38,337 nucleotides of DNA from IMG/VR virus record IMGVR_UViG_3300025647_000099, positions 1-38,337 of that record; one strand, given 5' to 3'. Shown here one piece after another: positions 2-8,878 of this stretch (position 1 is its first letter; each line of letters starts with the position of its first letter). This DNA is from a virus. The notes beneath the pieces were generated by a model, which saw only the letters and a program-made list of their open reading frames with translations, was not told where the DNA came from and searched no databases. Made by a program: the position numbers and the translations under genes.

Positions 2-136
2 AATAACAGACTAGAAAATGAAAGGGAGATTCTAATTGCAGAAAACAAAAGACTGCGTGAGGCTTTGGAGAAGATAGCAGAGTCTGATGAAATCGCACAA
101 CATATAGCGCAGCAAGCACTGGAAGGTGAGAAATGA
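2..136 (+). CDS. Coiled-coil protein, 3' end only
   Basis: This is an open frame that enters from the left edge and stops at 136, so only the last 44 residues are visible. They are charged and helix-prone (RLENEREILIAENKRLREAL) and look like a coiled coil. The C-terminus ALEGEK is identical to that of the next gene, as is the DNA encoding it. The stop overlaps the next start as ATGA, so the two are probably translationally coupled. The arrangement recalls early-region coiled-coil proteins of phages (Ea22-like), but that is only a resemblance. Function unknown. Confidence 0.6.
   Translation, partial: NNRLENEREILIAENKRLREALEKIAESDEIAQHIAQQALEGEK
116..136 (+). repeat. 21-bp direct repeat, copy 1 (gene-end/ribosome-site repeat)
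   Basis: The sequence GCACTGGAAGGTGAGAAATG plus A occurs here and again, identically, at 421-441. It encodes ALEGEK-stop and also carries a ribosome site (GGAAGGTGAG) and the ATGA start/stop overlap for the following gene. The repeat therefore duplicates a complete coupling junction. Confidence 0.85.
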
Positions 137-441
137 AATGTAAAAGTTGTGGCTCAGTTAGACATCATTTATACGAATGTCCACATGGTGATAACTGGAC
201 GAGCTTAAATGCCAAAGTTAAACAGATTGAAGTAGAGCGAAACTCAGCTTTTGATGCTATCGCTAAATTAACAGTAGAACGTGACCGTTATCGTGAAGCT
301 TTAGAAACTGTAAAGGATGTACTTAGTTATTTGCCTGTTGGGTTCATGGGTATTTGTGGCGACGTACAAACCGGCGAAACTTGGCCTTGTGAAGATGAGC
401 TTTTTGACACAATAAATACAGCACTGGAAGGTGAGAAATGA
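133..441 (+). CDS. Small protein with CCHC zinc-knuckle-like N-terminus and coiled coil
   Basis: 102 residues. The N-terminus has a perfect C-x2-C-x4-H-x4-C spacing (C3, C6, H11, C16), as in retroviral-type zinc knuckles, which usually bind single-stranded nucleic acid. Residues about 30-65 form a charged helix (VERDRYREALETV) similar to the end of the upstream gene (RLREALEKI). The protein ends in the same ALEGEK. The start overlaps the upstream stop (ATGA) and is preceded by GGAAGGTGAG. It looks like a diverged tandem paralogue of the truncated upstream gene with different inserts. The zinc-knuckle reading rests on spacing alone; nucleic-acid binding is an inference. Confidence 0.65.
   Translation: MKCKSCGSVRHHLYECPHGDNWTSLNAKVKQIEVERNSAFDAIAKLTVERDRYREALETVKDVLSYLPVGFMGICGDVQTGETWPCEDELFDTINTALEGEK
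421..441 (+). repeat. 21-bp direct repeat, copy 2
   Basis: Identical to 116-136. It encodes the ALEGEK terminus and provides the ribosome site and ATGA overlap for the small gene starting at 438. Confidence 0.85.
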
Positions 442-593
442 GTGATTATGATGATATTGAATATGCAGCAGATCAAGCAATGGATGCTGTTTATGATCTG
501 ACTAATTCATATGAAGGATTAGATCAAACTTGGCGGTTTCTTTGTCGTTGTTTAAATAATGAATACAAAGAAATTAGTAGTAGTAGAAGATAG
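438..593 (+). CDS. Small acidic hypothetical protein
   Basis: 51 residues, starting MSDYDDIEYAADQAMDAVYD and ending EISSSRR. The start is the ATGA overlap with the previous stop, served by the GGAAGGTGAG ribosome site of the duplicated junction. It is acidic and probably helical, with two cysteines in CRC. I do not recognise a family. An in-frame ATG of the next reading frame lies inside its 3' end (559), but that start has no ribosome site, so the JAB gene is better started at 628. Confidence 0.55.
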   Translation: MSDYDDIEYAADQAMDAVYDLTNSYEGLDQTWRFLCRCLNNEYKEISSSRR

Positions 594-627
594 AATTTTT
601 AACTATTGTGCACAACCCGGAGGCCTT

Positions 628-1425
628 ATGCCAAAGAAAGGAAAGAAACCACATTACGTGGTCAACGCAACCGGTGGCAAGTATGTACCAGCCACTACCC
701 CATCTAAACCCGCACCTAAGCCCAAGCCGTTGCAGTTCAATGCAACGTCACAGACCAAGACGATTACACCAATCGGCACGACACAAATGCCAACTGTGTA
801 CTACACACGAGATGCGTGGACGAAGATGTGGAAGATTGTTGAACTGTGCCCTGAAGAAGTTGGTTGGTTAGGCACAGTCGACAAAATCGGAGGTGATTAT
901 TTAATCACTGAAGTCTTTCTTTTAGAACAGGAGGTAAGTGGTGTTACGACTGATATTGAGTCTGACGCTGTTGCTAATCTCGCAGTTGAGTTGGAGTCAC
1001 GCGGTATCGACTCTTCGAAACTTCGATATTGGGGTCATTCGCATGTAAACATGGGTGTCAGTCCATCTGGTACTGACGAAAATCAAACCAACGAATACAT
1101 CGAGCATTGTGACTTCTTCATTCGTGGTATCTATAACAAGAAGATGGAAGCAAAGGTCGATGTATTCGACATGAACCACAAGCTTGTCTATCAAAAGGTT
1201 GACCATGCAGTCAAAGATGAACGCTATGATGCTGAATGGCTAAAAGCGTTGAAAGATGAGATTGCAGCAAAAGTTAAGAAACGTGTATATGCACAACCTT
1301 ATAGTTATGGCGGCTTGAGAAACAACCAAGCAGTACCAGCAGCTCAAATGAATCAACAGTTTAAGAATCAACGCGATCAATATTTGAATTGGCGTTGGGG
1401 AGACTATGACAAATGGGATTACTGA
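628..1425 (+). CDS. JAB/JAMM-domain metallopeptidase (deubiquitinase-like)
   Basis: 265 residues from the ATG at 628, chosen because GGAGG lies 4 nt upstream. An in-frame ATG at 559 lacks a ribosome site and overlaps the previous gene. Residues 137-150 give the full JAMM signature H-x-H-x7-S-x2-D (H137, H139, S147, D150), and E76/E77 in PEEVGWLG is the expected upstream catalytic glutamate. Zinc-dependent JAMM proteases cleave isopeptide or C-terminal bonds of ubiquitin-like proteins, and an intact site predicts activity. A Pro/Lys-rich linker (residues 20-50) precedes the domain, and an aromatic/Asn/Gln-rich tail follows. Unlike tail-associated phage JAB proteins there is no NlpC domain. The gene overlaps the E2-like gene by 13 bp and lies in one run with a Ubl gene. 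Role in Ubl processing or removal is inferred from this context. Confidence 0.9.
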   Translation: MPKKGKKPHYVVNATGGKYVPATTPSKPAPKPKPLQFNATSQTKTITPIGTTQMPTVYYTRDAWTKMWKIVELCPEEVGWLGTVDKIGGDYLITEVFLLEQEVSGVTTDIESDAVANLAVELESRGIDSSKLRYWGHSHVNMGVSPSGTDENQTNEYIEHCDFFIRGIYNKKMEAKVDVFDMNHKLVYQKVDHAVKDERYDAEWLKALKDEIAAKVKKRVYAQPYSYGGLRNNQAVPAAQMNQQFKNQRDQYLNWRWGDYDKWDY

Positions 1426-2438
1426 AAGACATTGAGTTTAAAAATCCACAAGTTCAGGATTTGGATTACAGGATCAGACGCTTTGAGGAACAAATAACTA
1501 CTTGGAATCAGCGTATTGAACGTATGAGCCGAGACTTAGAGGAATATGTTGCAGATCAGAAAGCAATTACTGAGTACAACGAGAAGGTAACTCATGCTGG
1601 TATCGCTGTTCCAGATTTTTTACAAACCAAGATTCGTGTAATACTTCACGATCTAAATCTGTCTGAACAAAGTAATAAAGCTTCTATTGAGCGTCTTGAG
1701 CGTGACATATCAAGTCACAATCGTGAGTTATCGCCGCTTAAAGAACAGCGTGCTCGTCTTACTGATAATGAAATGATTCGCATCAGTAAAGATGGTGTTA
1801 AAGCATCGCTTGAAAGTATAGGCGCTGTTAACCCTCGCACAGTATGTGTAGGTAGTGACACACATGGTCAGTTTGTTCGTTGGCGTTATGATGATATTTG
1901 GATGTCTCCTGACAAGAACACATATCCATCTATTAACAATGGTGGTCCTGTAAGGATCAAACTTGAACCTTTAACGTGTACCTTTTATGTACGTAATAAT
2001 TCCGTTGCTATCGTTCCTATTCGTGGCGGCCGTCGTGTCGAGAATTTCAGTGGTAGGGCAACAGGCCATCCTCATATTCTCGATAATAATCGTCCTTGTC
2101 TTGGTGATTATACCACCCCGGTTGCAGAGGCGATTAGCGAACAGGATTGGCCAACTCTGGCGTCGTTGATGGAAATGTTCCTATCCAATGCAACAGTTGA
2201 CGACGCAGCAGGTCGTTACTGGTGGCGTTGGCTACAGCTTGTTCCGGGTATTGATGATGTTGTTCGTACTTACGCAGCTCGCAATCCACAGAATCAGTTA
2301 GTAGAACAGATCATAATGATTGGGCATAAGTTCGCTCGTGTTCAGTTAGATGGAAACAATGCAAACGTAACTTTGTATGACACATACGAAGAGTACTTTA
2401 AACCGGAGACAGAAGAGAATGAAGAAGCAGCAGCTTGA
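1413..2438 (+). CDS. E2-like (UBC-fold) protein with N-terminal coiled coil
   Basis: 341 residues. Residues 1 to about 125 are charged and helical (coiled coil). The C-terminal half resembles prokaryotic E2-like proteins: a beta-rich segment leads to HPHILDNNRPCLGDY at 219-233, matching the HPN...G...CL active-site signature of E2 enzymes, with C229 as candidate catalytic cysteine. A helical tail (LASLMEMFL...DDAAGRYWWRWL) follows, as in the Prok-E2/PRTRC-B type proteins. E2 enzymes carry a Ubl as a thioester on this cysteine and pass it to targets. The gene starts inside the JAB 3' end (13-bp overlap). No ThiF/E1 motif occurs in the protein or its neighbours. The E2 call rests on motif and context; whether it forms thioesters is untested. 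The N-terminal coiled coil could hold substrates or mediate oligomerisation. Confidence 0.8.
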   Translation: MGLLKDIEFKNPQVQDLDYRIRRFEEQITTWNQRIERMSRDLEEYVADQKAITEYNEKVTHAGIAVPDFLQTKIRVILHDLNLSEQSNKASIERLERDISSHNRELSPLKEQRARLTDNEMIRISKDGVKASLESIGAVNPRTVCVGSDTHGQFVRWRYDDIWMSPDKNTYPSINNGGPVRIKLEPLTCTFYVRNNSVAIVPIRGGRRVENFSGRATGHPHILDNNRPCLGDYTTPVAEAISEQDWPTLASLMEMFLSNATVDDAAGRYWWRWLQLVPGIDDVVRTYAARNPQNQLVEQIIMIGHKFARVQLDGNNANVTLYDTYEEYFKPETEENEEAAA

Positions 2439-2799
2439 GTGGGAAGATTTCACAACATTCGATGAAGTGCCAATTGGTATGTGTTACGTAGCTGGTTATT
2501 ATATAACTGAACCTGAGTACGTGTTCACAACTCTGATGTATGTTGGAACAGATGCAAAAGACATTGTTTGTCTTGATCCCGATTTTGCACAGACAACTAA
2601 GTCTAGTGAAGTAGTCATTACTCATTGGAGTGACTATTTCCATCCTGCACATCCTGAAGAAGATATTGGCTTTTCTGGCGATCCTGAGAAATTATCTGAG
2701 GAGATTGAAGAGTTCACATCTGGTGTGACAAACGTAGACAACAATCCATCGCTATCAATGGCGGTTGAGTTGTTGGAAGAAACTTTGCTCTATTTATAG
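2419..2799 (+). CDS. Acidic hypothetical protein in the Ubl cassette
   Basis: 126 residues from ATG 2419, which has GGAG at 2405-2408. The longer in-frame start at 2377 would lie deeper inside the E2-like gene. The N-terminus is basic (MKKQQ) and the rest acidic, with alternating hydrophobic residues suggesting beta structure (YVAGYYITEPEYVFTTLMYV) and a helical C-terminus (MAVELLEETLLYL). No nucleotide-binding glycine motif, CxxC pair or catalytic signature is visible, so it is not an E1. It overlaps the E2-like gene by 20 bp and ends 8 bp before the next gene. Not recognised. Its place between E2-like and Ubl genes makes it a candidate substrate, adaptor or regulator. Confidence 0.7.
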   Translation: MKKQQLEWEDFTTFDEVPIGMCYVAGYYITEPEYVFTTLMYVGTDAKDIVCLDPDFAQTTKSSEVVITHWSDYFHPAHPEEDIGFSGDPEKLSEEIEEFTSGVTNVDNNPSLSMAVELLEETLLYL

Positions 2800-2807
2800 G
2801 AGGCTAC

Positions 2808-3239
2808 ATGCCAAGAGTTAGTTATGAAGACTATGAAACAGAAGTCTACGTAAACGTCTCTCCCGAATGGGATGAAGACATTGAAGATATTTATAACAAT
2901 TGCAGTAACTCTGAGATAAGGCAGTTTATCCAGTTAGCAATAGAGAATGAGTTTGAGTATAGTCCTGAGCTTACTCGTACTCGTTCTGATGACTCACAAG
3001 AGTCAGATGCGATTGAGAAAGCTGTTCACGTTATTGCTGATGCAACTGATGATCAGATTGCATCCTTACCCGATGAAGACATCGATATGCTTCGTACGAA
3101 GTTTACTGGTGTCGTACATGAATCTACGATCAGGAAGAATCCTCTTCTTGACGAGATAAAACTGATGGTTAATTCGTGTGACGCGTCACCATCACCACAA
3201 TTATGGAACGAATTTAAGTTCCTTATTTCTTCACTTTAA
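2808..3239 (+). CDS. Very acidic hypothetical protein in the Ubl cassette
   Basis: 143 residues with a strong ribosome site (TAGGAGGCTAC-ATG). It is rich in Asp/Glu throughout (EWDEDIEDIY, DEDIDML), with predicted helices at about 36-50, 69-85 and 118-143. There are no cysteine pairs, membrane segments or catalytic motifs, and I do not recognise a family. It sits 19 bp upstream of the Ubl gene, with only a ribosome site between. Strong acidity is common in DNA-mimic or inhibitor proteins, but nothing specific supports that here. A Ubl target or partner role is equally possible. Confidence 0.7.
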   Translation: MPRVSYEDYETEVYVNVSPEWDEDIEDIYNNCSNSEIRQFIQLAIENEFEYSPELTRTRSDDSQESDAIEKAVHVIADATDDQIASLPDEDIDMLRTKFTGVVHESTIRKNPLLDEIKLMVNSCDASPSPQLWNEFKFLISSL

Positions 3240-3258
3240 TATCTAAGGAGATATTCAC

Positions 3259-3480
3259 ATGGCTATTATTGCTAAAGTTATTCGCGTACCCGGTGCTGTC
3301 GTTGAAGTAGGTGTTGAAGACGGTGCTACCGTCTCTGACGCTTTGAGCGCAGCAGGCGTTACCTTGACTTCAGGAGAAACCCTGAAGCTCAACGGCTCTG
3401 ACGCCGATACTGACGCCGTTCTGTCAGACGGTGCACGCATTCTCATTGCTAAGGCAGCCAAAGGGGCTAAAGGAGCATAA
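3259..3480 (+). CDS. Ubiquitin-like beta-grasp protein (ThiS/MoaD/PRTRC-C-like)
   Basis: 73 residues with a strong ribosome site (AAGGAGATATTCAC-ATG). The order of elements fits a beta-grasp fold: strand (IIAKVIRVPG), strand (VVEVGVEDGATV), helix (SDALSAAG), strand (ETLKLNGSDA), then VLSDGARILIAK as the last strand. The second strand/turn and the D-G-x-x-I/V-L/I ending are typical of ThiS and MoaD. The C-terminus is AAKGAKGA rather than GlyGly. Removal of one Ala would leave a terminal Gly, which the nearby JAB could in principle do. Codons are mostly the preferred ones of enterobacterial-type hosts, suggesting high expression. Being last of an overlapping run with JAB and E2-like genes supports a conjugation role. 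A sulphur-carrier role is the main alternative. Confidence 0.8.
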   Translation: MAIIAKVIRVPGAVVEVGVEDGATVSDALSAAGVTLTSGETLKLNGSDADTDAVLSDGARILIAKAAKGAKGA

Positions 3481-3586: not shown

Positions 3587-3705
3587 TGCGTAAGTTCCAC
3601 CCGAAGCTCTGGAAAGCTGAATAGTCATACTCAGGTCGAGTCACTCACTACCAGCGGAGAAGCCCTACTCTCCATCCGTGTAGGGCAGCTTCACCAATTC
3701 TTTTT
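3587..3705 (+). ncRNA. Candidate structured non-coding RNA in the 3481-3723 gap
   Basis: The gap between the Ubl and HTH genes (243 bp) has no credible ORF. After the TATAAT at 3575-3580 come a TTCCA/TGGAA hairpin (3595-3599 with 3610-3614), an ACTC/GAGT hairpin (3629-3632 with 3638-3641), and a strong terminator stem with a T-run (3659-3705). This could be a roughly 120-nt small RNA or the structured 3' leader of the upstream mRNA. I tested for a tRNA cloverleaf near GGTTCG (about 3513) and found none. I see nothing clear in 3481-3570. Confidence 0.35.
3659..3705 (+). terminator. Rho-independent terminator after the Ubl cassette
   Basis: GCCCTAC at 3662-3668 pairs with GTAGGGC at 3680-3686. 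The outer GAAG (3659-3662) can pair with CTTC (3689-3692) around a short bulge. T-rich sequence (TTCTTTTTCT, 3698-3707) follows. It would end transcripts from the Ubl cassette before the HTH gene at 3724. Confidence 0.7.
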
Positions 3706-3984: not shown

Positions 3985-4117
3985 AACCAAAGAGCAGAAA
4001 CAGCGTGAAGCTCTTGAACGTGCACGCGCTGCAAAATGGGAAAACTCCCGTGCTAAGCGTCTTGGCACGAAAACCCGCGAACAGTGGGAAGAAATGAATA
4101 AAGCGTTATGCCAGTAA
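3977..4117 (+). CDS. Small basic helical hypothetical protein
   Basis: 46 residues (MAKTKEQKQREALERARAAK, ending EEMNKALCQ). The start lies in the last codons of the HTH gene (8-bp overlap), and CTGGAG (3963-3968) upstream serves as ribosome site. The end overlaps the next gene by 10 bp. The protein is highly basic and helical, with good host-like codons, which supports real coding. No family recognised. Coupling to the HTH gene suggests a shared regulatory role, but that is a guess. Confidence 0.6.
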   Translation: MAKTKEQKQREALERARAAKWENSRAKRLGTKTREQWEEMNKALCQ

Positions 4118-4422
4118 AGCGCGCTTATTTAAAGAATCAAGTGGTGGGCAATATGCGAATCGTAAGTTTCGCTGAGCCCTCATTAACGGTTAAAGGGTTG
4201 CTACCTAACTACATCTGCGAATGCTGTAACTGTGGCAAAGTTAAGAGAATGTCACAAGACGCGTTACGTAAGCGCTCGAACACAGGTGCAATCAAATGCG
4301 GTACGTGTTCTCAATACAAAATAGAAGGGCGCAGTAAAAAGTCAGGTAAGCGTACGAACTACCAAGAACATGATGGTTTTAACGCCGAGCTACATAACAA
4401 ATTTATTTCGATGAGGTTGTAA
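4108..4422 (+). CDS. Zinc-module protein resembling the N-terminus of phage AP2/HNH endonucleases
   Basis: 104 residues. The order VGNMRIVSF ... YICECCNCGKVKRM ... DALRKRS ... IKCGTCSQ matches the N-terminal zinc-binding module seen in many phage HNH/AP2-type endonucleases (general pattern: G-x-R-(F)-G-R-L-x-V, then C-x-C-x-C-G, then S-C-G-C). At least five cysteines could bind zinc. The frame stops at LHNKFISMRL, about where the catalytic part of such endonucleases normally begins. That catalytic part is seen as a separate ORF at 4900-5397. It may be a truncated or split endonuclease, or an independent zinc protein. Start by overlap (10 bp) with the previous gene. Confidence 0.6.
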   Translation: MPVKRAYLKNQVVGNMRIVSFAEPSLTVKGLLPNYICECCNCGKVKRMSQDALRKRSNTGAIKCGTCSQYKIEGRSKKSGKRTNYQEHDGFNAELHNKFISMRL

Positions 4423-4922: not shown

Positions 4923-5397
4923 ACTCAACCCCGGTGTATACGGGTCAAAATTATATAAAACTTGGTCGCGTATAAAAAGACGCTGTTATAATCCGAACCA
5001 CGACACATTTAAATATTATGGCGGTAGAGGCATCACTTTATGTGATGATTGGGTTAATAGCCCACAAACGTTTATTGATTGGGCTGAAAACTCTGGTTAT
5101 AAAGAAGGCCTTACGATAGATCGCATTGATAATTCAAAAGAATACTCCCCAAGTAACTGTAGATGGGTGTCAATGTCCGTACAAAACCATAATACGCGAC
5201 AAACTAAATTAGATGATGAGAAAGTTCGTTTTATTAGAATCGCACTACAAAATAAAACACATACCGGAAAAGAACTAGCAAAGATGTTTAATGTATCACC
5301 GACGTTAATTAGCGCGGTTAAACATCGTTTAGTTTGGTTCGAACTGGAGGAAGCACATGGCAAGAGCAACGAGGGCAATTGTACAAGCGAAGATTAA
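4900..5397 (+). CDS. HNH/AP2-type homing endonuclease-like protein with C-terminal HTH
   Basis: 165 residues from ATG 4900; an in-frame ATG at 4867 exists, and neither has a good ribosome site. The body follows the phage/mobile HNH-like pattern: W-x-x-I-K-R-R-C-Y-N-P, then YYGGRGITLCDDW, then TIDRIDNSKEYSPSNCRWV. Its D-R-I-D ... N-C-R-W block is the conserved part. A C-terminal segment (GKELAKMFNVSPTLISAVKH) looks like a helix-turn-helix for DNA targeting. Both ends overlap neighbours (23 bp with the DUF3310-like gene, 41 bp with the helicase), as expected for an inserted selfish gene. The cognate N-terminal zinc module is absent here and found at 4108-4422. Cleavage activity is inferred. Confidence 0.75.
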   Translation: MPRGRPSKLNPGVYGSKLYKTWSRIKRRCYNPNHDTFKYYGGRGITLCDDWVNSPQTFIDWAENSGYKEGLTIDRIDNSKEYSPSNCRWVSMSVQNHNTRQTKLDDEKVRFIRIALQNKTHTGKELAKMFNVSPTLISAVKHRLVWFELEEAHGKSNEGNCTSED

Positions 5398-6799
5398 TCC
5401 TAAAGCTGAGCTTTATTACAAGCCCAAGCCAGTAGGATTTACGCAACTAAGGCCGTACAAACATCAGCGTAAAGTAACCAGTCTACAAAATCAATCTTCC
5501 AACATTGTGTTTGATACAAGTGATGCAGGGACGGGCAAGACATACGCACACCTCATTGCTTGGCATAAACGGAGACAGGAAGGTGGTGGCAAGGCCTTAA
5601 TACTGTGTCCTAAATCAATTATGTTTGCCGCATGGGCAAACGACGTTCTTAAATTCTTTCCGGGCGACTATACAGTAAGCATAGCAGGTGCTAAGCAGAA
5701 GTTCGATGCTTTTGTCCCTGAAGCACAGATCGTTGTAATGAACCACGATGGAGTAAAATGGCTTGTTAAAGACAAAAGGTGGAGTACCTTTCTGGAAGAC
5801 TTTGACACCCTTATTATTGACGAGTCAGAAGCCTTCAAAAATCATACGTCTCAACGCTCCAAGGCAGCGAGTATTTTGGCCAACCAATTTGAATACCGAG
5901 CAGTGCTCTCTGCCACGCCGTTCAATAAGTCTGTCACGGAGCTTTGGCATCAAATCTATTTGCTTGATCGGGGAGCTTTACTCGGTAAGTCGTTCTTTCA
6001 GTTTCGAAACGCAGTCTGCACTCCCATCCAGAAAGGCCCAAGGCCGGAGATGCGTGAGTGGCAAGACAAGCCCGGGATAGATCAAGAGATAGCTTTAATT
6101 TTGCAATCCATAACAGTGCGCAACAAGTTTGAGGAGTGTTTGGACATCCCTGATAACGTGGTGCGTACCATTCCGTTCCATCTTACACCAAAGCATATGT
6201 CGGTATATGAGACTATGAAGGAGGATGCGGTTCTTGAACTCAACGAAGGTGATGTTACCGCAGTTAATGCCGCTGTCTTGGCAAATAAGCTACTACAGGT
6301 TGCTTCTGGGTCTGTGTACACAGAGGATTCAACTGCGGTGGTTGTCGATACGGAGCGATATGAACTTATCACGGAACTCGTGACCGAACGTGAACACTCA
6401 CTTGTGTTTTTTCAGTGGACACACCAAAGAGATGCACTGATGCAATATTTCGATAAAGGAGGTATTACCTATGAAATTATCGATGGAACTGTTTCTGACA
6501 GACGACGAAAAGAGATTGTGGAGGGCTACCAAGCGGGGGATTTCAAAACTCTTTTGCTTCACCCCAAATCAGCAGGACATGGACTTACACTTACGAAGGG
6601 AACGGCCACTATCTGGGCATCCCCTGTCTATTCGCCCGCGCTATTTGAACAAGCAAACCACAGGATCTATCGTGCAGGTCAAACAAAAAAGACCGAGACT
6701 ATACTAATTGAAGCTGTCGGAACAGTAGAGCAACGTATCAACGACATTTTGTCCCAACGTTTGGGTAAAATGGAAAATCTACTGGAGCTTTTATCGTGA
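5357..6799 (+). CDS. SNF2-type superfamily 2 helicase/ATPase
   Basis: 480 residues, ATG 5357 with a strong ribosome site (CTGGAGGAAGCAC). SF2 motifs appear in order: LRPYKHQ (31-37), Walker A DAGTGKT (56-62), DEXX box IIDESE (153-158), SATP (185-188), a second RecA lobe with HPKSAGHGLTL, and motif VI HRIYRAGQ (435-442). The Q-x-x-x-R-x-x-R-x-G-Q ending and compact size are typical of phage SNF2-like helicases. It hydrolyses ATP to move on or remodel duplex DNA, probably in replication or recombination. Its closeness to the polymerase supports this. It is followed by a GTGA overlap with a small gene. A replicative DnaB-type helicase is not present in the window. Confidence 0.93.
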   Translation: MARATRAIVQAKINPKAELYYKPKPVGFTQLRPYKHQRKVTSLQNQSSNIVFDTSDAGTGKTYAHLIAWHKRRQEGGGKALILCPKSIMFAAWANDVLKFFPGDYTVSIAGAKQKFDAFVPEAQIVVMNHDGVKWLVKDKRWSTFLEDFDTLIIDESEAFKNHTSQRSKAASILANQFEYRAVLSATPFNKSVTELWHQIYLLDRGALLGKSFFQFRNAVCTPIQKGPRPEMREWQDKPGIDQEIALILQSITVRNKFEECLDIPDNVVRTIPFHLTPKHMSVYETMKEDAVLELNEGDVTAVNAAVLANKLLQVASGSVYTEDSTAVVVDTERYELITELVTEREHSLVFFQWTHQRDALMQYFDKGGITYEIIDGTVSDRRRKEIVEGYQAGDFKTLLLHPKSAGHGLTLTKGTATIWASPVYSPALFEQANHRIYRAGQTKKTETILIEAVGTVEQRINDILSQRLGKMENLLELLS

Positions 6800-7026
6800 G
6801 AAGAATATATACTGCTATTGCAATCTTAACACTGGCATCTCGTTTAATGACCTTTTCATCAAACATCAGCCGGGAACTCTATATAAGAAAAAGAAGGAAG
6901 CAATATGAGCTGGACCAGCTTAATCAGACCAACCGATTTAATAGACCCCGTACGTATCATACCATTCGAGACGAAGATGACGAATTCGGCGAGTCGCCCT
7001 TCGACGATCGTTGGGATAGATTTTGA
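6796..7026 (+). CDS. Small membrane-anchored protein overlapping the polymerase gene
   Basis: 76 residues, GTG start overlapping the helicase stop (GTGA), with GGAG at 6783-6786. Residues 4-20 (IYTAIAILTLASRLMTF) form a possible membrane helix or signal anchor. They are followed by a basic patch (RKRRK) and a polar, acidic C-terminus (DEDDEFGESPFDDRW). The last 122 bp overlap the polymerase ORF in another frame. The ribosome site and coupled start favour a real gene; the long overlap is unusual. Not recognised. Confidence 0.5.
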   Translation: MRRIYTAIAILTLASRLMTFSSNISRELYIRKRRKQYELDQLNQTNRFNRPRTYHTIRDEDDEFGESPFDDRWDRF

Positions 7027-8878
7027 GACGTACTATGGAAAAAACTATACGCTCCGAAAACTCACAACCACCAATTATGTACGGGGACTATCCCGGGCAG
7101 AGATACACGGCGCATCTATTAGCATTAATGGAGAAGAAGCGCACTGGCACAGAGCAGAAGACCTCGAAATGGTATTCAATAGCATCGACTGGTCACGATC
7201 CGCTATGTTGGCTCACAACTGTGCTTTCGATGGTTTTATTCTTAGTCAGCACTATGGCCATATTGCAAATTACTATTATGATACAATGAGCATGGCGCGT
7301 GGATTACTTAGCCACGACATTCCCGCCGGACTCGATTCAGTTGCCCGTCATTACGGTCTCGGAAGTAAAATCGCTGGAGCACTCGAAGGAGTCATCAACA
7401 AGCGATGGCATGAGTTCTCTGAAGAGCAAAAGCTCGATATGGAGTTGTACTGTAACAACGACGTGCAAATCATGTGGAAGATCTTTGAAAAAATGCTTCC
7501 TCATTATCCACACGACGAGTTGGATCTGATCGACACAAGTATTAAAGCTTTTGCACGCCCGCTTTTAGAAGTAAATGCCACACTTGTGGCAGAAGAGCGG
7601 TTCAGGGAAGAGCAGGAAAAGACAGCGCTCATTAAGCGTGTCGCCGATAGATACGAACTTCCGACTGAATCAATACGTAAACAACTTTCATCCAACCCTC
7701 AGTTTGCTGAATTACTGGTTGCTGAGGGCATTGAGCCGCCGATGAAACCAAGCCCTTCCAACCCGGAAGAGATGACTTATGCGTTTGCCAAGAATGACAT
7801 TGCGTTTCAGAATCTAGGTACACACCCGGATGAGCACATTCGTGATCTGATTGAAGCTAGGCTTGCGGTAAAGTCCACTATCGGTGAGTCCAGAGCAGGC
7901 CGTGTACTGGAGCATTCTGACCTTGGTAAGAAGCCAATTCCGATTATGCTCAACTACTGTAAAGCGCATACCATGCGGTGGACAGGCGGTGACAAGATCA
8001 ATCCTCAGAATTTTCCCTCAAATCGGACGAACTCAAAACTCAGACATACCTTGATTGCGCCCAAAGGAATGGCTATGGTTGTGATTGACTCGTCACAAAT
8101 TGAGGATCGAATGAATGCTTACACAGCCGGACAATCCGATGTACTCGAAGCGTATCGCGCTGGCATCGACAACTACAAACTCATGGCGAGTAGGATTTAC
8201 GATGTCTCGGTTGATGAAGTTACCAAGCAACAGCGTTTCGTTGGAAAAGTTGCAAGGCTCGGTCTTGGTTACCAATGCGGAGTTGCTAAGTTTACTCACA
8301 TGCTCCGCGCAGGAACTATGGGACCGCCTATCTATGATAGCGAGTTATCGGACGAAGAGATTGCATCAGCCCACACGAAATACCGACGTGCTTCCGACCG
8401 AGTAGTTTCCCAGTGGTACAACATGCAGGACCAGATCGTAAATATGCGGTATGGCAACGAGAATATTTTGTACTCAGGATACAATAATTCACCGCTTGCC
8501 AAAGTGGTTAAAGACGGTATTCTTATGCCAAATGGGTTAAAACTACATTATCCCGGTATAACAACTGACCCGGACGGTCAGACCACGTATCAAGCCAGTT
8601 ACAATATGCGCTCCAAATTGTACGGCGGGCTACTCACAGAAAACTATGTGCAGTGCCTTGCTCGTATTGTAGTAGGAGAGCAGATGTTGAAAATTGCGTC
8701 AGAGTTTCCCGTAGTAATGATGACGCACGACGAGGTAGTTTATTTAACCCCAGTAAATGACGCACAAGCGGCTTATGACTATGGCCTTGAGTGCATGAAA
8801 TGGGTTCCGGATTGGTGTCCGGGGCTACCCGTCGATGCCGATGGTGATTTCGGCGACAACTACGGAGAGATCAAATGA
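6905..8878 (+). CDS. Family A DNA polymerase with 3'-5' exonuclease
   Basis: 657 residues from ATG 6905, which has a GAAGGAAG ribosome site. The proofreading domain carries DEDDy motifs: IDFE (D39, E41), AHNCAFDG (D109) and YCNND (Y182, D186). The polymerase domain shows motif A IDSSQIEDR (D395), motif B QRFVGKVARLGLGYQCG (K448), and motif C THDEVVY (H608, D609, E610). All catalytic residues are present, so it should be an active replicative polymerase. There is no 5' nuclease domain. Motif A reads QIEDR rather than QIELR. The first 36 residues before the exonuclease look unstructured, and a shorter start (ATG 6977) cannot be excluded. The 3' end overlaps the next gene by ATGA. Confidence 0.95.
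   Translation: MSWTSLIRPTDLIDPVRIIPFETKMTNSASRPSTIVGIDFETYYGKNYTLRKLTTTNYVRGLSRAEIHGASISINGEEAHWHRAEDLEMVFNSIDWSRSAMLAHNCAFDGFILSQHYGHIANYYYDTMSMARGLLSHDIPAGLDSVARHYGLGSKIAGALEGVINKRWHEFSEEQKLDMELYCNNDVQIMWKIFEKMLPHYPHDELDLIDTSIKAFARPLLEVNATLVAEERFREEQEKTALIKRVADRYELPTESIRKQLSSNPQFAELLVAEGIEPPMKPSPSNPEEMTYAFAKNDIAFQNLGTHPDEHIRDLIEARLAVKSTIGESRAGRVLEHSDLGKKPIPIMLNYCKAHTMRWTGGDKINPQNFPSNRTNSKLRHTLIAPKGMAMVVIDSSQIEDRMNAYTAGQSDVLEAYRAGIDNYKLMASRIYDVSVDEVTKQQRFVGKVARLGLGYQCGVAKFTHMLRAGTMGPPIYDSELSDEEIASAHTKYRRASDRVVSQWYNMQDQIVNMRYGNENILYSGYNNSPLAKVVKDGILMPNGLKLHYPGITTDPDGQTTYQASYNMRSKLYGGLLTENYVQCLARIVVGEQMLKIASEFPVVMMTHDEVVYLTPVNDAQAAYDYGLECMKWVPDWCPGLPVDADGDFGDNYGEIK

Follow-up and report, generated by a model that had tools for sequence, protein, structure and literature searches.

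Predicted components of a ubiquitin-like conjugation and deconjugation pathway encoded by a phage and its relatives

A run of five plus-strand genes at the left end of the viral record IMGVR_UViG_3300025647_000099 (IMG/VR) encodes a JAB/JAMM metalloprotease, an E2-like protein, two acidic proteins and a small ubiquitin-like (Ubl) beta-grasp protein. The window analysed here is this entire record, a linear and incomplete one of 38,337 bp for which no completeness estimate is shown. The window is judged, with a probability of about 0.8, to encode three members of the four-protein core of a self-contained phage pathway for Ubl conjugation and deconjugation. An earlier note, made from the sequence alone, had described the cassette and the numbering of its JAMM residues correctly, as checked by open reading frame (ORF) and motif. 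The genes are as follows:

628..1425, + strand: JAB/JAMM metalloprotease, 265 residues, with E77, H137, H139, S147 and D150; assigned by motif and weak profile matches
1413..2438, + strand: E2-like protein with an N-terminal coiled-coil hairpin and a core (residues about 122-276) like that of ubiquitin-conjugating (UBC) enzymes; HPH-x7-C with candidate catalytic C229
2377..2799, + strand: acidic protein, 140 residues, no assigned function; restricted to the window and its closest relative
2808..3239, + strand: acidic protein, 143 residues, no assigned function; likewise restricted to the window and its closest relative
3259..3480, + strand: ubiquitin-like beta-grasp protein, 73 residues, C-terminus AKGAKGA; predicted conjugated modifier

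The JAB, E2-like and Ubl genes

The start codon of JAB (ATG 628) is preceded by GGAGG, a ribosome-binding-like sequence. The earlier picture of an overlapping run closed by a terminator holds in its first part: JAB overlaps E2, E2 overlaps the 140-residue gene, and the subsequent genes are spaced by 8 and 19 bp. It fails in the second, as the sole plus-strand terminator-like match (3205-3222) lies within the gene preceding Ubl and none was found immediately after Ubl. The closest relative of the window, IMGVR_UViG_3300025647_000126 (L001), aligns with window positions 612-3465 at 91% DNA identity with the gene order kept. Between the two, the Ubl gene has 11 synonymous and no nonsynonymous changes, and the ratio of nonsynonymous to synonymous rates (dN/dS) is 0.08 for JAB and 0.20 for E2. 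Judged from these substitution patterns, JAB, E2 and Ubl are under purifying selection. The two acidic genes are looser (dN/dS 0.36-0.43, the 140-residue gene being one that overlaps E2); the 143-residue protein resembles, very weakly (E=0.016), an ORF that precedes the Ubls in loci L018 and L169.

The JAB family carries the JAB/JAMM signature, an upstream Glu followed by HxHx(7)SxxD. The HxHx7SxxD part is present in all 132 JABs, and the Glu, also found in the window protein, is invariant in 39 JAB sequences. At the level of profiles, Rpn11 and BRCC36 are matched weakly (E=0.003 and above), and 12 of 39 family members match Prok-JAB (best E=0.003). JAB is predicted to be a protease that matures the Ubl, a deconjugase, or both.

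The E2-like ORF contains HPHILDNNRPCLGDY and C229, as the earlier note had it. P220, H221, C229 and D264 are invariant in a 25-sequence alignment, the P-H and Cys remain so in E2 alignments of 25-38 sequences, and a PH-x(3-13)-Cys motif occurs in 107 of 124 E2 sequences. The window protein has an HPN-like motif, HPH, seven residues before the candidate catalytic Cys; this HPH-x7-C spacing is that of the eukaryotic HPN-x7-C motif. The AlphaFold2 (AF2) model of the core has per-residue confidence (pLDDT) mostly about 90 and shows, in order, a helix, a beta meander, an active-site loop and helices. The E2-core profile aligns to Prok-E2_B exactly at PH..C, with a score of 24.0 against 16.4 or less for 53 unrelated control families. 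Compared with PDB sequences the same profile gave nothing significant, and UQ_con had no match in 200 genomes of the same phylum, which therefore supplied no set for comparison. From the active site, the order of secondary structures and the profile comparison, we infer that the E2-like protein likely has a UBC fold.

The Ubl matches Pfam Ub-Mut7C above the cut-off (E=2.3e-5). Its AF2 model is a beta-grasp with a mean pLDDT of 83, the last five residues being of low confidence, and a Foldseek search with this model returned SUMO, SAMP1, the Caldiarchaeum ubiquitin and MoaD at a probability of 1.00. The beta-grasp assigned earlier to the 73-residue protein is borne out by Pfam, the predicted model and Foldseek.

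The Ubl C-termini mostly lack Gly-Gly. The window Ubl ends in AKGAKGA, that of L001 in AKGA, and those of the window clade have [KR]G[NA]: Lys-Gly are the last conserved residues, after which come an Asn or Ala and a tail of 0 to 24 residues. For example, KGN stands at the extreme C-terminus 26 times and is followed by one residue 13 times, and tails extend beyond AKGN in L003 and L089. The Ubls of the gut clade mostly end in DNA (Asp-Asn-Ala), and a few have Gly-Gly plus two residues. Head-to-tail poly-Ubl genes of two or three units are present in L055:1863-2495, L106:7465-7896, L118:7529-7942 and L138:1347-1775, all with [KR]G[NA] (KGN or RGA) at the internal boundaries. In four gut-clade loci (L037:2893-3513, L049:2480-3100, L044:2939-3631 and L075:3034-3711) the Ubl is fused, straight after KADNA, to a domain of ~130 residues that is elsewhere a separate gene upstream of Ubl (e.g. 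L034:2667-3071). These fusions are reminiscent of ubiquitin fusion precursors. Because poly-Ubl and Ubl-fusion precursors exist in relatives, the simplest reading is that JAB would mature the Ubl to a small C-terminal residue. Two tandem, separate Ubl genes of L018 (3470-3688 and 3771-3986) end in AKSAS and AKSAA, without the usual Gly; the same Ubl sequences occur in the Allochromatium humboldtianum locus L169 (6694-6912 and 6995-7210).

The E1 and the recurrence of the four-gene set

No ThiF match was found across the 38,337-bp record, and the cassette had been described as one without a visible E1, the E1 being elsewhere, borrowed from the host or not needed. L001 encodes a 230-residue ThiF-family E1 (PF00899, E=9e-22) that ends about 490 bp upstream of JAB. 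The spacer between them consists of two small coiled-coil-like ORFs, the first of which ends in ALEGEK. The window begins as follows:

2..593, + strand: three small coiled-coil-like ORFs (44 residues and open at the 5' end, 102 residues, 51 residues) preceding JAB; the record begins within the first

The first, cut-open ORF likewise ends in ALEGEK, and the 102-residue ORF is weakly similar to L001 1487-1666 (E=0.005) and L008 8056-8271 (E=0.001). Small coiled-coil-like genes of this type separate E1 from JAB in L001 and follow E1 in L008. Since the window starts inside an ORF of the kind that separates E1 from JAB, an E1 is expected upstream of base 1. The E1 adjoins JAB in L003 too. The L008 E1, 93% identical in amino acids, has over 2 kb of small genes behind it, so its spacing from the cassette is not fixed. 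A longer viral contig extending upstream of base 1 was not found with two exact 37-38-base probes taken from the first 600 bp.

The missing E1 is most likely explained by a record that was cut off, since close relatives encode the enzyme, and the window's own phage presumably encodes one as they do. The description as a cassette without E1 was in this respect misleading; of the explanations offered, an E1 elsewhere stands, as the record ends before it. A genuinely E1-less cassette, with the E1 borrowed or unnecessary, is very improbable: the absence of a ThiF match from the record is what speaks for it, but the enzyme is encoded beside the cassette in L001 and in almost every other relative (an E1 is present at 164 of 167 viral loci, E1 having been one of two baits in the search). 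A fragmentary record can thus give a false "E1-less" system.

The E1s of the family are mostly about 225 residues long and are encoded separately from E2 in L001 and L003. The nucleotide-site residues and Cys184 are invariant in 37 E1 sequences, and the E1 profile matches UBA5, ThiF, MoeB, MccB, Cap2 and BubCD. The top NCBIfam score of the E1s in L001 and L004 is to the ThiF model, at 64-67 bits, far under the cut-off. On an unrooted tree the split between E2-E1 fusions and the E1s of phages and PRTRC has 100/100 support. Those of phages fall on one side in 62% of bootstrap trees (again unrooted); a single origin of these is not firmly supported, and long branches may mislead.

The distribution of the cassette was surveyed by scanning IMG/VR with alignments of E1 and of JAB and with profiles built by iteration. 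This gave 167 viral loci, some contigs being represented more than once, or 135 distinct sets. Of the 167, 164 contain JAB, 164 E1, 147 E2 and 156 Ubl. As E1 or JAB was the bait by which nearly all loci were retrieved, it is the figures for E2 and Ubl that carry information. The commonest gene order is Ubl-E2-JAB-E1 (74), followed by Ubl-E1-JAB-E2 (18), JAB-E1-Ubl (13), E2-JAB-E1-Ubl (6) and minor others, and the four genes share one strand in nearly all sets. A scan of GTDB genomes added 35 loci, all with E2 and JAB, 34 with E1 and 30 with Ubl, assigned to Clostridia and Oscillospiraceae, Flavobacteriaceae, Paludibacteraceae, Allochromatium humboldtianum and others; they lie mostly on contigs of metagenome-assembled genomes and may be phage DNA. 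GenBank phages provided a single example, MT835544, from human faeces, and a plasmid collection searched with one gut-type query held no JAB relatives. By these sequence matches, the four-gene set recurs in well over a hundred other phages, mostly uncultured. The earlier proposal had been made to hang on conservation of the cassette in related phages, and the 135 distinct viral sets answer in its favour. No description of a phage E1-E2-JAB-Ubl cassette was found in the open-access literature, of which the coverage was incomplete.

A match to one profile of the large terminase subunit (TerL) was found in 12 of 26 sampled virus records; the window is without one. The TerL-like matches in records G516, G517, G519, G520 and G529 (loci L025, L030, L038, L043 and L115) contain one or more in-frame stops, which are possibly recoded stops, introns or errors. 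In many gut-clade cassettes an acidic protein of ~170 residues lies between JAB and E1 (L025:5432-5959, L035:5512-5988 and about 23 other loci); the one member searched against Pfam (L063:5428-5961) had no match.

Of 153 non-redundant loci, 90, chiefly from gut-clade phages, encode a retron-like reverse transcriptase (RT) downstream of E1 and in the same orientation. Two examples are:

L004:6954-8291, same strand as E1: retron-like RT
L058:7089-8237, same strand as E1: retron-like RT

A YxDD-like motif is present in 89 of the RTs, and the gap from E1 to RT is most often about 300 bp. The L004 protein matches RVT_1 (E=2e-15) and PADLOC retron RT models (down to 5e-38). Structured RNA in the E1-RT gap gave a weak and unconvincing signal (mean z about -0.9 relative to simple base shuffles). 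The RT is absent from the window and from the nine related records searched.

Neighbouring genes and sequence elements of the window

The cassette belongs to the replication side of the genome, with the virion genes on the opposite strand. The window also contains genes for tail fibres and, cut by its right end, a gene for a virion structural protein. Two features lie downstream of Ubl:

3600..3694, + strand: non-coding element of 95 bp, 3' of Ubl, 97% identical in L001; hairpin GAAGCCCTAC..GTAGGGCAGCTTC
5357..8878, + strand: helicase and family-A DNA polymerase, encoded 3' of the cassette and in its orientation

The 97% identity of the non-coding element stands beside 91% for the cassette DNA. 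Its hairpin pattern was found in no viral contig besides that of L001, and Rfam had no match on the window. A small cysteine-rich protein (CECCNCGKVK...CGTCS) is encoded at 4108-4422 and is 85% identical in L001; a relative of it follows directly after E1 in L008 (6689-6991).

The predicted pathway and its relation to known systems

In the proposed pathway, JAB would trim the residue or residues beyond the conserved Lys-Gly of the Ubl and, in relatives, would also split the poly-Ubl or Ubl-fusion precursors. A ThiF-type E1, encoded just upstream beyond the record, would adenylate the exposed C-terminus and form a Ubl thioester, probably at the invariant Cys184. The thioester would be handed to Cys229 of the E2-like protein, which would join the Ubl to target proteins, and JAB could detach it again. 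The place of the cassette in the replication-side module suggests a role in the early to middle phase of infection, exerted on proteins of the host or the phage. The analysis shows the catalytic motifs, the gene content with its conservation and selection, the E1s of relatives and, as a model, the Ubl fold; we infer the E1 of this phage, the UBC fold, the order of reactions, the cleavage site on the Ubl, the timing and any target. The replication-side position, the strand opposite the virion genes, the intact E1, E2 and JAB motifs and the wide conservation favour a pathway active during infection, which would most simply serve to alter host or replication proteins. In relatives the cassette likewise recurs beside helicase, polymerase and DnaB-like genes.

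Several observations pull the other way. The E1 of the window's very phage is not seen in the record. In the E1s, Asn replaces the Arg of the N-x-x-R-Q motif: 157 of 159 have N-x-x-N/Q-Q and one has R-Q. The simple PH..C motif is missing from 17 of the 124 E2 sequences, no Pfam E2 model (UQ_con, Prok-E2) matched the E2-like protein, and the top Foldseek matches of the full-length E2 model (PDB, BFVD) were to its coiled-coil hairpin, which made the search uninformative and yielded no direct match to a UBC fold.

Defence against other phages is an unlikely use, in which virion or other proteins of competing phages would be tagged in a Bil- or CBASS-like manner, giving superinfection exclusion. 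The part types are those of bacterial defence systems (Bil and Bub also have a Ubl, an E1, an E2 and a deconjugating enzyme), and the cassette is found in bacterial assemblies as well, including L169, on a 528-kb contig of the cultured Allochromatium humboldtianum DSM 21881, whose Ubl genes match those of L018. However, the neighbours in the window and its relatives are replication genes and not a recognised lysogeny or cargo locus, and the E1 falls far under the cut-offs of curated defence models where these exist and matches PADLOC CBASS E1-E2 models moderately at most. Counter-defence, by which JAB would strip host Ubl or cGAS conjugates while Ubl, E2 and E1 acted as decoys or hijacked Bil, Bub or CBASS, is rated a little lower still. 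Several known host defences employ Ubl-like conjugation and the JAMM site is intact in every member, but the catalytic cysteines that E1 and E2 conserve would be superfluous in a mere decoy or deconjugase, and each Ubl is accompanied by its own enzymes.

A sulphur carrier of the ThiS/MoaD kind, serving a modified base, tRNA or cofactor, was among the options raised at the outset and is now decidedly improbable. A beta-grasp Ubl with a ThiF-type E1, for which ThiF is the best NCBIfam model in L001 and L004 though far under its cut-off, would suit it. The E2 with its conserved Cys would not, nor would E1s of which none in 159 has the paired CxxC zinc sites, nor Ubls mostly without Gly-Gly; the neighbour families that were examined included neither a recognisable rhodanese nor a recognisable cysteine desulphurase.

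Conjugation and deconjugation by the phage's own enzymes is the preferred account. It is known that bacteria deploy Ubl conjugation against phages; here phages of many hosts would own a complete pathway, maintained by purifying selection wherever a measurement was possible. The cassette is a small, defined and testable four-protein system, which raises the question of what a phage tags and why, and it makes poly-ubiquitin-like and fusion precursors available outside eukaryotes. A broader proposal, put forward tentatively and at somewhat less than even odds, is that these cassettes form a widespread, hitherto undescribed class of virus-encoded Ubl systems with their own E1, E2, modifier and protease, JAMM-matured precursors, attachment through Lys-Gly or Asn-Ala and, in many gut phages, coupling to an RT.

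Among known systems, the PRTRC plasmid cassette (operon type 6d of Iyer et al. 2006; PMC1779556) is the most similar, and the kinship to PRTRC-type cassettes proposed earlier is well supported. Both cluster separate E1, E2 and JAB genes with a small single-domain Ubl (the E1 being seen in phage relatives), the PRTRC Ubl of L222 ends in TKG, comparable to the ...KG of the phage Ubls, and the E2s share C-x-G after G-K-x. In contrast, His-Pro-Asn (THPN/SHPN) follows the Cys in PRTRC E2s, which have no upstream His, whereas HPH precedes it in the phage E2, and the PRTRC E1s examined retain Arg at the position of the phage Asn. PRTRC JABs are characterised by an alpha+beta domain at the N-terminus, with a conserved Arg and Trp. 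The PRTRC_ThiF model TIGR03736 scores 42.0 bits with L001, its cut-off being 144.75, and among the matches listed JAB, E2 and Ubl had no PRTRC model. Phage profiles recognise only the PRTRC E1, leaving JAB, E2 and Ubl unmatched; profile comparison of phage E2 with three distinct PRTRC E2 sequences gave no alignment across the active site, and the phage loci that were examined had no recognisable PRTRC partner genes.

Type II CBASS (Cap2/Cap3) and the Prok-E2_B fusions likewise combine E1, E2 and JAMM, and their E2s have P-H followed by Cys 7 or 8 residues later. The CBASS modifier, too, has no obligatory Gly-Gly, cGAS being conjugated via a C-terminal Gly or Ala (PMC10097602). CBASS Cap2 is an E2-E1 fusion, whereas the phage E1 and E2 are separate proteins; a beta-grasp Ubl is part of the phage cassette, and a CD-NTase was not recognised. 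The E1 profile matches Citrobacter BubCD (E=1e-9). Unlike Bil and Bub, the cassette is phage-encoded beside replication genes, its Ubls end in [KR]G[NA] or DNA, and neither its E2 nor its JAB sequences reach the cut-off of any curated model. Phage-encoded Ubl and JAB are also present in lambda and T1 as the tail assembly proteins I (Ubl) and K (JAB plus NlpC/P60) (PMC1779556); that tail module lacks E1 and E2, while JAB, E2 and Ubl lie on the replication side here. ThiS/MoaD systems are set apart by the paired CxxC zinc site and the usual N-x-x-R-Q motif, of which the former is present in none and the latter's R-Q in one of 159 phage E1s. On the sequence features compared, the phage cassette has PRTRC as its nearest relative and is a member of neither PRTRC, CBASS nor ThiS/MoaD.

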